In this document: positions 5,973-25,905 of the stretch, one piece after another
Layout of the letters: each line of letters opens with the position of its first letter
Numbering within the stretch: position 1 is the first letter of the stretch
Source: a virus
Virus record (IMG/VR): IMGVR_UViG_3300043409_001009
Span: 1 to 27,026 of that record
DNA length: 27,026 nt
Strand: one strand, 5' to 3'
Made by a program: the position numbers and the translations under genes
Notes under the pieces: generated by a model
The model's input: only the letters and a program-made list of their open reading frames with translations
Told to the model about the DNA's origin: nothing
Database searches by the model: none

Positions 5973-7199
5973 ATGGCAACGCTTCTAACCAGTCTATCTA
6001 AGTTAAAGATTCATCCAGCCGCCGAAATCTTTCCAATGCTTTCCGATGTAGAAATCAGAGACTTGGCCAAAGACATTTCCGAGCGTGGATTGCAAAACCA
6101 TATTGTCACCTATGAAGGCCAATTGCTGGACGGAAGAAACCGACTGGCAGCTTGCATCCTTGCAGGCATTGAACCAAAGGCAATGGAGTACGGAGGCGAT
6201 TCGCCAGTTGGCTTTGTGATCAGCGCCAACCTAAGACGAAGGCAACTTGATCCAAGCCAAAGAGCAGCGGTTGCCGTGGAGATCGAGCCGATGTTTGCAG
6301 CGGAGGCGAAGGAGAGGCAAATCCGAAAGCCTATAGATTCTGTTAAGGTAAATTTGCCTAAACAGAATAAAGAACCTCAAGCAAGAGATCAAGCCGCTTC
6401 TGTAGTTGGTGTTTCTGGCAAGATGGTAAGCGATGCCAAAGCCATTAAGAAGAATAATCCAGAAGCCTTTGAGCGCATCAAGTCCGGTGAGGTTACCGTT
6501 CATGAAGCAAAGAAGGAAATTCGAGGCGAGGAAATTAAGGAAATCCGCGCCAAGATGGTTCAAGAAGCCGCCACAGTTCCAAAAGATCACCGGTACAAAG
6601 TAAGCGTAGGCAATATCGAAACCTACGAAATGCCTGACGAAAAGCAATTTGATTACATAATTAGCGATCCTCCGTATATGGAAGAATTTCTATACCTTTA
6701 CGAAACGCTTGCAGAGAGAGCCGCGGATGATTGGCTAAAACCTGACGGACTATTAATCGTGATGTGCGGTCAATCGTATGTAAATCGTATTTATACGCTC
6801 ATGTCTAGGCATCTTGATTACTACTGGACGGCAGCATATTTGACACAAGGCCAACCAACACCACTAAGAACACGCCAAGTCAATTCAACTTGGAAGCCTT
6901 TATTGTTCTTCGTTCCAAAGGGTAGCAAGTACAAAGGTAAAATTTTTGGCGATGTCTTTGTATCCGATGCCAATGATAAAAGCTTTCATGAATGGGGCCA
7001 GAGCGAAAGCGGAATGCTTTCCATCATCTCCGGTGTTTGTTTACCAGGACAAACTATCTTTGATCCGTTTCTTGGAGCAGGCACCACCGGAGTTGCAGCT
7101 CTAAAGCATGGTTGCCTATTCAAAGGTATTGACCTTGAATCGAACAATGTTGAACTGGCTAAGACGAGAATCCACGGCACACGCTGGAGGAGTTTATAA
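5973..7199 (+). CDS. ParB-like domain fused to a DNA N4/N6 methyltransferase
   Basis: 408 residues. Residues 1-100 form a ParB/Srx-type domain (DLAKDISERGLQNHIVTYEGQLLDGRNRLAAC, then RRRQLDPSQRAA). Residues 135-185 form a ParB-like HTH linker. The C-terminal part is a methyltransferase with DPPY at 232-235 and DPFLGAGTT at 364-372 (catalytic motif before the AdoMet motif, the beta-type order). It should transfer a methyl group from AdoMet to adenine N6 or cytosine N4. Such fusions are frequent in phages and usually act in self-protection or DNA marking. The TAATG junction with the next gene, a possible nuclease, hints at a linked role. Target base and site cannot be read from sequence. Confidence 0.92.
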   Translation: MATLLTSLSKLKIHPAAEIFPMLSDVEIRDLAKDISERGLQNHIVTYEGQLLDGRNRLAACILAGIEPKAMEYGGDSPVGFVISANLRRRQLDPSQRAAVAVEIEPMFAAEAKERQIRKPIDSVKVNLPKQNKEPQARDQAASVVGVSGKMVSDAKAIKKNNPEAFERIKSGEVTVHEAKKEIRGEEIKEIRAKMVQEAATVPKDHRYKVSVGNIETYEMPDEKQFDYIISDPPYMEEFLYLYETLAERAADDWLKPDGLLIVMCGQSYVNRIYTLMSRHLDYYWTAAYLTQGQPTPLRTRQVNSTWKPLLFFVPKGSKYKGKIFGDVFVSDANDKSFHEWGQSESGMLSIISGVCLPGQTIFDPFLGAGTTGVAALKHGCLFKGIDLESNNVELAKTRIHGTRWRSL

Positions 7200-7630: not shown

Positions 7631-8044
7631 ATGAAGATCCTAGAATTCTGTCGAGTGACTTTCAATCAGACACAAAACAATAAGTATCTTAAAAATCGTA
7701 GGAAATGCTACATTGCCTGGTATTACTCCGCAGGCAGCTATTGGCAAGACGATAGCGGACAAGTAACGCAACGCTCATGGCTCGATTTATTCGCTGAATT
7801 AACGCCAGCAACTGAACGAACGACTGTATTCGCTCATATGTTTATTGCCGATCATTTAGAGGCCTTTAACGACCACGAAACGACCTTGGTAAACGATAAC
7901 TATCCGCCAGATTATCAGGGCGATTCACAGCGCAGGAATCAATGGGAAAGCGACGAGATGGAACTACTCAAAAAGATTGCTTCAACGGTGGCAGACAACA
8001 TGAAGAAATACGAAGAATTAAGCGAGGTGCTACATGGCGAATGA
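7631..8044 (+). CDS. Hypothetical protein preceding the replication initiator
   Basis: 137 residues, not recognised. The N-terminus has a YIAWYYSAGSYW segment, the middle has FAHMFIADHLEAFNDHE, and the C-terminus is a charged helix. Its last codons overlap the replication gene by 11 bases, so the two are co-expressed. The ribosome binding site is weak (AAGAG region). Confidence 0.7.
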   Translation: MKILEFCRVTFNQTQNNKYLKNRRKCYIAWYYSAGSYWQDDSGQVTQRSWLDLFAELTPATERTTVFAHMFIADHLEAFNDHETTLVNDNYPPDYQGDSQRRNQWESDEMELLKKIASTVADNMKKYEELSEVLHGE

Positions 8045-8912
8045 TTGGATTAAATTCCGTTCTGGACTGTTTGAATCACCAAAATTAATAGGCATGGCCA
8101 AGTTTTTGTCACGCTCAATTGATTTCCTCAACTGGCTTACTCCGGAGGTCTGCGAGGTTTGCGGTGACAATGTAACTTCAGAAAAAGCGTTACGAATGGT
8201 AACGGGTGCGTTACTTTCCGTTACCTGGTCACGGTTACGCCAGTTTGGTAAAGCGTTACCGAACGGAGATTGTTTCTTAGAATTTTTATCACTCTCTGAC
8301 CTTGATGGCATCGCAGGCGCACCAGATGTAGGCGCAGCAATGGAGTATGTTGGATGGGCTGAATACAGCGAGGAATTGCAGGGTGTAATAATCCCTAAGT
8401 TCTTTCTGGAACACAATGTTGCGTTAAGTTCTGCGGAAAAACAAAGCGCATATCGAGAGCGAAAAAGCACACAAAAACGAACGGAAAAGCGTTACCAAAG
8501 CGTTACTAATGCGTTACCAACAGCCGGTAACAAAACGGTAACTAGAGTAGAGGAGAGTAGAGTATTAGAAGAAGTAGTAGAAAAAGCAGAAAAATTATTC
8601 CAGCCTGAGATAATTTTTAAATGCAACGGTAAAGAAAAATCTTGGAGCCTGACCGAACAATTCTTGGCAACGGCTCGCGAAGCCTTTCCAGCCCTGCCAG
8701 TTCTTGAGATTATCCGAGGTGCTTGGTTCTGGACTGAAAACAATCCAGACCGCAGGAAGACGGCAAAGGGAATGCCACGATTCTTGAGCAACTGGATAGC
8801 CAACGAAAACAACAAACCACCGGCAGCCAATTTGCCACGCTCACGACCAGTCAAAGCCACCGTTGATGCCGAAGACTTCCTACGAAATAAACTTGCGGAG
8901 ATTCAATCATGA
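8034..8912 (+). CDS. Phage replication initiator (O-like)
   Basis: 292 residues. The start (DWIKFRSGLFESPKLIGMAKFL) is the winged-helix opening typical of phage replisome organisers. An AEKQSAYRER boundary, a low-complexity linker (residues about 150-195) and a C-terminal segment (WFWTENNPDRRKTAKGMPRFLSNWIA) complete the pattern seen in many phage O-like proteins. The expected role is to bind the phage origin and load helicase. Its gene carries a dense array of GCGTTAC repeats in several reading frames (8172-8542), as origins of lambdoid phages lie within O. The ATG overlaps the previous gene, and the stop overlaps the next start (ATGA). The family is likely; the specific partner is unknown. 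Confidence 0.8.
   Translation: MANDWIKFRSGLFESPKLIGMAKFLSRSIDFLNWLTPEVCEVCGDNVTSEKALRMVTGALLSVTWSRLRQFGKALPNGDCFLEFLSLSDLDGIAGAPDVGAAMEYVGWAEYSEELQGVIIPKFFLEHNVALSSAEKQSAYRERKSTQKRTEKRYQSVTNALPTAGNKTVTRVEESRVLEEVVEKAEKLFQPEIIFKCNGKEKSWSLTEQFLATAREAFPALPVLEIIRGAWFWTENNPDRRKTAKGMPRFLSNWIANENNKPPAANLPRSRPVKATVDAEDFLRNKLAEIQS
8172..8594. other. Probable phage replication origin: GCGTTAC iteron arrays and purine-rich tract
   Basis: GTTAC/GTAAC starts at 8172, 8189, 8199, 8210, 8220, 8234 and 8255 (array 1) and at 8491, 8502, 8513, 8527 and 8538 (array 2). Many copies extend to GCGTTACC or its complement. Steps in array 2 are 11, 11, 14 and 11 bases; array 1 has 10, 11, 10, 14 and 21. The sites therefore lie close to one face of the helix. 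The same heptamer is read in all three frames of the coding sequence, so protein coding does not explain it. Directly after array 2, 8543-8594 is about 83% purine on the upper strand and increasingly A-rich, as in the lambda origin. Confidence 0.75.
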
Positions 8913-9643
8913 AACCAACACTCACAGAGCTATTGTCTTGGACTAAAAAACACGCCAGCCGCTTCGCCTGGACAATGCCAGCAGATTTGGAATGTCTGGC
9001 CGAATGGGCGACGATTCAGACGAAGTACGGTGTGACACTTTCAGAGCTTGAGGAAGTATCTGAAAAAATGGTGATGAACACCAAAGATGTTTTCGGAAAG
9101 GAAAATCACTTGAAAACGCTTAATAACATTTTACACGGACTCAGAGAGCGCAAAACCTACGCAGTCATTGACGACGACCAGCGAGGAACTTGCACGACTT
9201 GCGGAGCTGGTTGCGGATTGGTGTCCGTTCCAGAGCCTAGGCAATTAGTCGCAGGCGAATGGACAGGCGTTCAATTTACTTTCGTTTATTGCAGTTGCAC
9301 CGATGGCTTCAGATACCGAAATACGAAGAATCACAAAGAACAGCCTTTGATGTCGCTCTTTGACTACGAGCGAAGAATCAATCCGTTTTGGAAAATCCAT
9401 GTCAAAAGCTACTTTGAAAAAATGATGTCAGAGAATCAAGTTATGAGTCTTGCCAGAAATCTCGATGGCAAGGTAGGAACTAATCTTTCGGTCTTGGATA
9501 AGTTACAACTCAAAATCATAGGAAGGATGAACGATGATATCGACAACGCATATATCGCAGAGCGTGCAGGAAATTCGCAGGGAAATTTGCCAACAATGCT
9601 TACGAGCAACGACAATCAGATATACGATCGGACTGGTTTGTAA
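8909..9643 (+). CDS. Zinc-finger protein in the replication block, unknown role
   Basis: 244 residues, not recognised as a family. Residues 95-130 carry C95, C98, C102, C128 and C130, which fits a treble or paired zinc site. The N-terminus (LTELLSWTKKHASRFAWTMPADLECLAEWA) looks like helical segments of loader or replication accessory proteins. No Walker motif is visible, so it is not a typical DnaC-type loader. Position directly after the initiator, with an ATGA overlap, suggests a replication accessory or helicase recruitment role; this is inference. Confidence 0.75.
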   Translation: MKPTLTELLSWTKKHASRFAWTMPADLECLAEWATIQTKYGVTLSELEEVSEKMVMNTKDVFGKENHLKTLNNILHGLRERKTYAVIDDDQRGTCTTCGAGCGLVSVPEPRQLVAGEWTGVQFTFVYCSCTDGFRYRNTKNHKEQPLMSLFDYERRINPFWKIHVKSYFEKMMSENQVMSLARNLDGKVGTNLSVLDKLQLKIIGRMNDDIDNAYIAERAGNSQGNLPTMLTSNDNQIYDRTGL

Positions 9644-23572: not shown

Positions 23573-24490
23573 ATGGAAAATGTTTCGTTCACTTTTGAAG
23601 ATGCTCAAAGAATTTCAAATACTGTTTTGGCGCAGGAGCGCAGCAAATACGCTGTAAAGCCGGTTGACCTTACCAGTCAAGCCGATGAACTTGTAATAAT
23701 CAATGTAACGGCAACGACTAAATTTGCAGACGGAACGCAAGACGGCAACCTAAGTTTCTGGAATGAAATAACGCACTTATACGCTGCTTATGATCCAGTT
23801 CAAACGGTACGAGTACGAGCAGCAAACACAGCGGACACACTTCCAACAGGCTATGTTTTCGCAAGGTTTCAAGGTGTGACATCGAGGAGCGGTGTTGTAG
23901 GGCCGTTGTATATTGCTGTTACGGTTCGACCTTCCGGTGGCTCCGCTACGATTGAAGTGGTTACGGATGTTATTTGCACTCCGACAGGAATAGAAGTTTC
24001 AACGGTTACGCTCTCAGGCGCAGATTATGACAACGCAGTAATCAGGCAATTCTTATCTTTATCCGATGTTACTCCAGCAAGTTACCTTGGCAACCAAGGC
24101 CGAGTAGTAAAGGTAAACGACGCAGCTACTGCGCTGGAATTTGGCGGAATAGGTGAAGGGCCAACCTATACCACCTTTATCGCTCTTAGTGATTCGCCTG
24201 CGACTTATGGAAGTGGTAGCACCTACTACAGCTTAACAGTCAATAGCGCAAATTCTGCAATAGTTTTTTCGGCAAATAATGTAACAACGACAAACAGCCT
24301 GACCGGCGGAGGCAATCCAAATTCGCCAGCCTGGACAGCGTTGAAGCTGGTGAACGACACGGCAACGCCTGGCAATAATAAGTATTACGGCACCAATGGA
24401 AGCGGTACTAGGGGTTGGCAATCTATTCAGGCAATGCTTGACGCAATCACAGACCTTACCGCAAGAATCGTAGTGTTGGAAGGTGCATAA
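23573..24490 (+). CDS. Tail fibre or tip structural protein
   Basis: 305 residues, beta-rich. A phage fibre motif, FLSLSDVTPASYLGNQGRVVKVNDAATALEFG (around residue 160), is followed by a variant copy, FIALSDSPATYGSGSTYYSLTVNSANSAIVF (around residue 200). This internal duplication is typical of host-interaction fibres. The C-terminus ends in a short helix. It begins on the base after the previous stop and overlaps the next by one base. Confidence 0.65.
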   Translation: MENVSFTFEDAQRISNTVLAQERSKYAVKPVDLTSQADELVIINVTATTKFADGTQDGNLSFWNEITHLYAAYDPVQTVRVRAANTADTLPTGYVFARFQGVTSRSGVVGPLYIAVTVRPSGGSATIEVVTDVICTPTGIEVSTVTLSGADYDNAVIRQFLSLSDVTPASYLGNQGRVVKVNDAATALEFGGIGEGPTYTTFIALSDSPATYGSGSTYYSLTVNSANSAIVFSANNVTTTNSLTGGGNPNSPAWTALKLVNDTATPGNNKYYGTNGSGTRGWQSIQAMLDAITDLTARIVVLEGA

Positions 24491-25905
24491 TGGAACTGGC
24501 AACAACGATCACAGGATATAGCCAGCAATCTATTTACGCTTCTAATATAAATCTGTCTACCAATGTAATTACATTTTCAATTTCAAATGCAACAGCAGAA
24601 TACTTGCCAAATATTTACAAGGTGTTTTTTAAAGAAATTACTTTAAAGCCTTTACCAACTAACATTGCATCTAATGAAGTTTATTTTCTTAGAAAAATCA
24701 ACAGCACAACTTGCAAACTTTACACCAGCGAAGCAGACGCATTAGCGCAGACCAACGCCGTAGACTGGACTAGCGAAAATGTCGCAAGTGTTAGCACTTA
24801 TTTTGCCATGTATTACCTCAGCAAGAAATACAGCATTTCCGAATGTATCGAATTAGGCGCAGCAGATGTAGAGGATATTATTTGTTGTCCGCCACCAGTT
24901 GCAATGCACGAATTTTTACCATCAACGGCAACAATCACAAAGGCGGATTCAAGCACCGTTACCGCAACAATATACGCAGATCCGTACAACCAAGAATTTA
25001 TGTTTCTTTATAATTTCTTTTACAATTACACCAGCGATTTGCCAATGGCTTGGACTGGATATTATTACGAGCCTCAAGGAACATTTGAAGTAGTTCGAGT
25101 TTATTTAATTAGAGGATCAGAAGGCTTTACTGTTTATGTCACTGTCCACACACCGACGGCAACAAGGACATTTACTTCTCGAACTGGGGTTGTTTACGGG
25201 TCTGGCGCACTTTCTGAATCTATACCTGAAGCAAACATTCAAAGTTCTATAGTAGTTACCGAGTATTTTGCATCCTCTCCGCCACCTACACTCGAACAGT
25301 GGACGGTAAATTTTAGCGTACCTTTCGAGCTACCTTCTACGCTTTCGCTATCTATGACAGGGGCAAAGTTTAAAAATGTAACTCAAACGGTAGTAGGTGG
25401 CGTAGTAACAGCCACAGCGACAAATGATATTAGCCTTGGCAATATCAGCGTTACGCTAACCTATGACTCAGAATCAGGCTATTGGTTTGGGCCTTTGGAA
25501 AATTACTACAACATTCCAGGCAGATTACATATGCAATCACATTTTTTTGATGCAGCGCCAAAATGGAACGCTGCAAACGGAAATTATAACAACAAACTAG
25601 ATATTGATCACGCTGCTATTATTGGCTCAAATAATGGGTTACCGATGCAAGTAAAACCAACTATTAAAGTAAACGACAGCGGCACTCTTTATATTGATGA
25701 AGACTCGGCAGGAAGCAGATTTTACATTAGATACAGCACCTACAAGCGAGCCAGAAAAGGACTTAATTTTGAATACGATTCTACGGCGTGGCCTTATGGC
25801 GGATCAATAGGCTCAAACGATTCGCAAGTATATCACTTTTTTAACTCAAACACATATTGGGTCGAATCAACAAATGTCACGATAACTGGCGGAACACTAC
25901 CTTAG
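24490..25905 (+). CDS. Structural protein of the tail, unknown
   Basis: 471 residues rich in S, T, N and Y, of all-beta appearance, without recognised motifs. A CC pair in IICCPPPVAM near residue 132 is unusual for the region. The C-terminal third (WFGPLENYYNIPGRLHMQSHFFDAAPKWN...) looks like a separate compact domain. The TAATG overlap with the previous gene puts it in the same operon. It is probably a fibre, tip or receptor-binding component. Confidence 0.55.
   Translation: MELATTITGYSQQSIYASNINLSTNVITFSISNATAEYLPNIYKVFFKEITLKPLPTNIASNEVYFLRKINSTTCKLYTSEADALAQTNAVDWTSENVASVSTYFAMYYLSKKYSISECIELGAADVEDIICCPPPVAMHEFLPSTATITKADSSTVTATIYADPYNQEFMFLYNFFYNYTSDLPMAWTGYYYEPQGTFEVVRVYLIRGSEGFTVYVTVHTPTATRTFTSRTGVVYGSGALSESIPEANIQSSIVVTEYFASSPPPTLEQWTVNFSVPFELPSTLSLSMTGAKFKNVTQTVVGGVVTATATNDISLGNISVTLTYDSESGYWFGPLENYYNIPGRLHMQSHFFDAAPKWNAANGNYNNKLDIDHAAIIGSNNGLPMQVKPTIKVNDSGTLYIDEDSAGSRFYIRYSTYKRARKGLNFEYDSTAWPYGGSIGSNDSQVYHFFNSNTYWVESTNVTITGGTLP

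Follow-up and report, generated by a model that had tools for sequence, protein, structure and literature searches.

Does this phage carry its replication origin inside the gene for its own replication initiator? The question is raised by two clusters of short repeated sites within an open reading frame at 8034-8912 (+ strand) of the window, the whole 27,026-bp stretch of a virus record, which also encodes an integrase and has one block of replication genes and one of terminase and head genes. To our knowledge, the origins of most phages are unmapped. Our analysis indicates that the region 8172-8597, embedded in the initiator gene, is very probably the replication origin of this phage. Elsewhere in the window, 5973-7199 is predicted to encode a fusion of a ParB-like N-terminal part and a DNA methyltransferase.

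We searched the product of 8034-8912 against protein families. An earlier note on this DNA had called it a replication initiator gene, and the searches agreed with this: the protein matched phrog_2509 (E 1.1e-13) and phrog_9474 (E 6e-5), both PHROG families of the type "replication initiation protein", and matched no Pfam family. These matches and the annotated homologs point to a replication initiator. The 292-aa product comprises an N-terminal winged-helix domain, a linker, and a C-terminal domain. In the AlphaFold2 model, residues 10-128 form a confident winged helix (pLDDT mostly >90), with helices at residues 50-71, 87-94, and 99-105 and strands at 110-112 and 117-120; this domain (residues about 10-128, codons 8061-8417, + strand) is the presumed reader of the repeated sites. 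Model confidence was low in the linker, within whose codons the second cluster lies. A Foldseek comparison of the winged-helix domain with the PDB gave as best matches CRP/FNR-type proteins, all weak and non-significant. The C-terminal domain (residues about 191-260, 8604-8813, + strand) is presumed to contact a helicase loader or helicase. It resembles a stretch in the loci L059, L022, and L089, and a Vibrio phage "replication initiation protein" also has such a stretch. The C-terminal half of the family profile matched the primosomal protein DnaT (E 4e-4). This would fit helicase recruitment, but the window itself has a C-terminal part that falls in another group. The gene immediately 3' of the initiator (8909-9643) contains a Cys cluster (CTTCGAGC) and gave no confident family in Pfam or PHROG; by its position, its product is a candidate helicase loader.

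Twelve GTTAC/GTAAC sites had been claimed in this gene, in two clusters of seven in 88 bp and five in 52 bp, and our recount gave the same sites and steps. Array 1 (8172-8259, + strand) lies within the winged-helix codons, with sites starting at 8172(-), 8189, 8199(-), 8210, 8220, 8234, and 8255 and steps of 17, 10, 11, 10, 14, and 21 bp. Array 2 (8489-8542, + strand), encoded in the linker, consists of three copies of GCGTTAC at 11-bp steps followed by two reversed sites (GTAAC). Its five sites start at 8491, 8502, 8513, 8527(-), and 8538(-), with steps of 11, 11, 14, and 11 bp, and fall within 8491-8542 (52 bp). The full GCGTTAC heptamer, proposed as the repeat unit, was found at 6 of the 12 sites. 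The proposal that the sites share one helix face stood for the runs 8189-8220 and 8491-8513, which are in phase, but not across whole arrays. In array 1, the sites at 8234 and 8255 stand about a third of a turn out of phase, as do the reversed sites in array 2.

The number of sites exceeds what chance or codon use would give. The whole window contains 65 GTTAC/GTAAC sites versus 31.5 expected, and its maximum of seven sites per 88 bp compares with four at most in 300 dinucleotide shuffles of the window. No 5-mer of the initiator gene is more over-represented than GTAAC. When synonymous codons were permuted, keeping both the protein and its codon usage, the mean was 5.7 sites and 12 were reached in 1 of 20,000 permutations; with codons drawn by whole-phage usage, the gene held nine sites at most and never reached 12. 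The claim that codon use is insufficient as a cause was thus borne out by a codon-preserving check. All three frames are used, with five, two, and five sites in frames 0, 1, and 2 and sites on both strands. Near the right end of the window, two further genes are rich in GTTAC (23573-24490 and 24490-25905), and codon content is sufficient to explain their sites (p 0.54 and 0.72).

We compared the gene with two close relatives, L002 and L003 (about 90% identity), and found all 12 sites unchanged. Over the first 801 bases, none of the 60 motif columns varied, compared with 116 of the 741 others (Fisher p 8e-5). The same was found at third codon positions, where 0 of 19 varied within motifs and 82 of 248 outside them (p 0.001). 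The purine-rich tract described below is almost as constant as the sites: 2 of 48 columns (8543-8590) varied.

To collect homologs by protein alone, we ran a profile scan that made no use of the motif and obtained 80 loci, 62 of them distinct. These loci, the window, L002, L003, and named phages gave an alignment of 71 genes. The sites were of type GTTAC/GTAAC in 40 genes (named members: Escherichia phage TL-2011b and Xanthomonas phage CP2), GTCAC/GTGAC in 13, often with GTTAC too (Aeromonas phage pAEv1818), and GCGGAC/GTCCGC in 18 (epsilon15, SPN1S, and phiPSA1). GTTAC-type genes had a mean of 9.8 sites versus 4.7 after codon permutation, with p<=0.01 in 32 of the 40. Homologs have their sites mainly in two clusters, one around window residues 30-80 and the other around 140-170. 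The named GCGGAC members share this layout; for the GCGGAC type as a whole, the first cluster is shifted a little towards the start of the gene (residues about 19-59) and the second starts from about residue 140. In the window, the second cluster has three sites one way and two opposite, then TAGAGTAGAGGAGAGTAGAG. In epsilon15, SPN1S, and phiPSA1 it has two sites one way and two opposite, then AGAGAAGAGAAGAGAAG; the epsilon15 counterpart of array 2 reads GTCCGC twice, then GCGGAC twice. In Vibrio phage VPBES (L437, 958-1926), the linker of the replication initiation gene carries a different repeat in a similar place, with four to five tandem copies of the CGAAAACGGTACTTTGAATAGGCC type.

A tree built from N-terminal domains requires one change for the GCGGAC type and at least seven for the GTCAC type. 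Since GTCAC arose this often and frequently stands alongside GTTAC, we treated GTYAC as one code. The replacement of GTTAC by GCGGAC in one clade, with the same layout, points to the initiator itself as the reader of the sites, and this covariation of iteron and initiator rests on one event, the single clean switch. Because the iteron sequence varies by lineage and the layout is constant, the layout is a DNA-level feature tied to the initiator. We tabulated the residues that differ between the GTTAC and GCGGAC lineages; the differing positions were too many for specificity residues to be named.

A purine-rich, A-rich tract had been reported to follow the arrays, and it is present at 8543-8597 (+ strand), adjoining the 3' end of array 2, as a presumed unwinding element. 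The purine peak of the gene begins 23 nt and its A+T peak 14 nt after array 2. Among the 71 aligned genes, which share ancestry and are thus not independent counts, the purine peak starts between -10 and +40 nt from the end of the second cluster in 68 (96%), compared with 6% for random positions. The lambda O gene, measured in the same way as a positive control, has peaks that begin 11 nt (purine) and 2 nt (A+T) beyond the end of its annotated iterons.

We then compared the locus with known origins. The iterons of lambda and Stx phages lie in the middle of gene O, beside an AT-rich tract (PMC7466680), and gp38 of SPP1 binds direct repeats within its own gene 38 (oriL), beside an AT-rich unwinding element (PMC6316719). 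Both hallmarks of lambda oriO and SPP1 oriL, repeats within the initiator coding sequence and an adjoining A+T- or purine-rich tract, were found in the window. With lambda ori, the window shares iterons in the middle of the initiator gene and, after them, a tract rich in purines and in A+T; with SPP1 oriL, going by the published description, it shares repeats inside the initiator's own gene. However, the four iterons of lambda are 18 bp long and stand 20-24 bp apart, unlike the 5-7 bp cores, mostly 10-11 bp steps, and two arrays of the window, and 18-bp ATCCCTCAAAACGAGGGA-type lambda iterons were not found in the window. The lambda O family was absent from the Pfam and PHROG matches of the protein; a very remote winged-helix kinship may exist. 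The description "lambda-like origin" therefore holds for layout (two clusters and a purine tract across the 71-gene family, with lambda O alike) but not for ancestry. The origin would be of the kind embedded in a phage initiator gene and may work like lambda oriO; by the sequence tests run, it appears to belong to a widespread GTYAC iteron class and not to be a lambda O homolog.

We also compared the window with the Salmonella phages epsilon15 and SPN1S and the Pseudomonas phage phiPSA1. The window's N-terminal domain is homologous to that of this family by profile, alignment, and tree, and the phages share the two clusters and the purine tract directly after the second. They differ in their iteron, GCGGAC/GTCCGC. 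A DnaT match is also noted in the annotation of the epsilon15 protein; in the window, the C-terminal part clusters with other proteins instead. TL-2011b and CP2 are of the same family and have GTTAC/GTAAC sites and a purine-rich tract, but fewer sites (6 and 5) and a reversed orientation order in the second cluster. Rep of TP901-1 and of Tuc2009, two Lactococcus phages, has been studied as an initiator of this general kind; unlike the window, neither has a GTTAC array. The annotation of Tuc2009 places the origin of replication within rep. The motif and layout had not been recognized in the earlier note. No GTTAC origin was found in the open-access literature, and an older description may exist, for instance in a review dealing with phage replication modules; the pattern recurs in many phages. 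Taken at the level of sequence, the comparison strongly supports origin iterons embedded in the initiator gene.

The arrays could instead be an operator, bound by the initiator for autoregulation or by another phage regulator for transcription control, with replication starting elsewhere. Mixed-orientation clusters of short sites are common in operators, and array 1 lies early in the gene. However, array 2 lies mid-gene, with the purine tract directly after it in the same 96% of homologs, which is the layout of lambda ori, and we consider an operator unlikely. GC skew showed no turn at 8172-8597.

For an embedded origin, we propose the following mechanism. The N-terminal winged-helix domain would bind GTYAC, about one site per helical turn in each run. 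The initiator would build a nucleoprotein complex on array 2, with array 1 probably looped in, and the resulting strain would open the adjacent purine-rich tract. The C-terminal domain would then recruit the helicase or its loader. The core origin would consist of array 2 plus the purine tract, and array 1 may be auxiliary, in loading, looping, or copy control.

We also ran a motif-first census, using a pattern of three GCGTTAC copies with gaps of 1-4 bases, which matched at least 120 viral loci. The control heptamer GCTTGAC, an unrelated permutation, gave 48 loci, most of them exact tandem repeats, as their gaps were identical. Among the matches listed, step pairs of 10+11 or 11+10 bp were found in 55 of 107 distinct GCGTTAC loci versus 2 of 41 control loci, and only 16 of the 107 had identical gaps, which sets most of them apart from tandem duplications. 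Arrays lay inside initiator ORFs in 77 of the 120 listed, as counted with an initiator profile partly built from the same loci, and in 0 of the 48 control loci; independent PHROG tallies at the motif-found arrays gave replication initiation proteins, DnaD-like loaders, and replisome organizers. The remaining listed arrays were near an initiator ORF (4), near terminase genes (13), or elsewhere, including collagen-like repeats (26). Same-strand steps within initiator genes were 10 or 11 bp in 207 of 247 (matches listed).

Because the arrays themselves create protein similarity, the residues that they encode were masked before the proteins were clustered. Among the matches listed, 63 of 83 masked N-terminal parts formed one group, and the C-terminal parts fell into at least 38 groups. 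The N-terminal subgroups are joined by a chain of significant profile matches, which reaches the window's subgroup via L014-type and L022-type proteins; direct matches between the window's subgroup and the more distant ones were not significant. A scan of genome contigs found mostly tandem repeats, with an initiator ORF over the array in 10 of 117, and a plasmid search found nothing. Genomes with arrays in initiator genes were named Pelotomaculum, Desulfosarcina, Acidobacteria, Verrucomicrobia, and Chloroflexi.

That a host factor, and not the phage initiator, binds the sites is very unlikely. The pentamer does recur beside unrelated phage genes, terminase genes among them, but the iteron type follows the initiator lineage, and the spread of arrays over genomes of those five names makes one host factor improbable. 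Scarcely credible is a protein-level repeat, in which VT and NA residues are selected in linker and helix and the DNA motif follows from the codons: the arrays do encode recurring VT and NA (alignment consensus VTxxNAxVTxxNA), and VT is common in the N-terminal helix, but all three frames and both orientations are used, codon permutation does not reproduce the sites, third codon positions are frozen, and the GCGGAC clade encodes other residues in the same layout.

An initiator-embedded origin would give a simple rule: in the initiator linker, GTYAC or GCGGAC sites recur every 10-11 bp and a purine tract follows. Such a rule would predict the origins of many uncultured phages and of relatives of the laboratory phage epsilon15. 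As two iteron types occur on one predicted fold, the code by which winged-helix initiators read iterons is directly testable. The break at the origin between shared N-terminal and diverse C-terminal parts suggests that helicase-recruiting modules are exchanged and origin recognition is kept. We more tentatively consider, as a possibility that we would not yet favor, that GTYAC is the recognition code of a superfamily of phage winged-helix initiators, that these freely exchange their helicase-recruiting C-terminal parts at the embedded origin, and that further phage machines, such as terminase packaging sites and primase-helicase origins, have adopted the code.

Since GTTAC arrays also stand at terminase and primase-helicase genes, the motif alone does not mean an origin. 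The 13 terminase-side arrays are mostly intergenic, lie beside small or large subunit genes, and may be packaging sites (among them L020 2519-2590, L030 2986-3590, L048 2860-3623, L005 3175-3542, L024 2027-2327, and L007 380-697). In bacterial genomes, GTTAC arrays adjoin or overlap Prim-Pol/AAA, D5-type, or helicase-primase genes (L186 4940-5050, L190 2120-2309, and L250 635-1262). The heptamer CATTGCG was tried as a second census control and proved unsuitable, as most of its matches were themselves 11-bp arrays, many beside polypyrimidine tracts. These CATTGCG (CGCAATG) arrays, with 11-bp steps beside polypyrimidine tracts (L124-L179, for example L153, L178, and L170), resemble a further iteron class that shares the layout; some, but not all, lie in the same initiator family.
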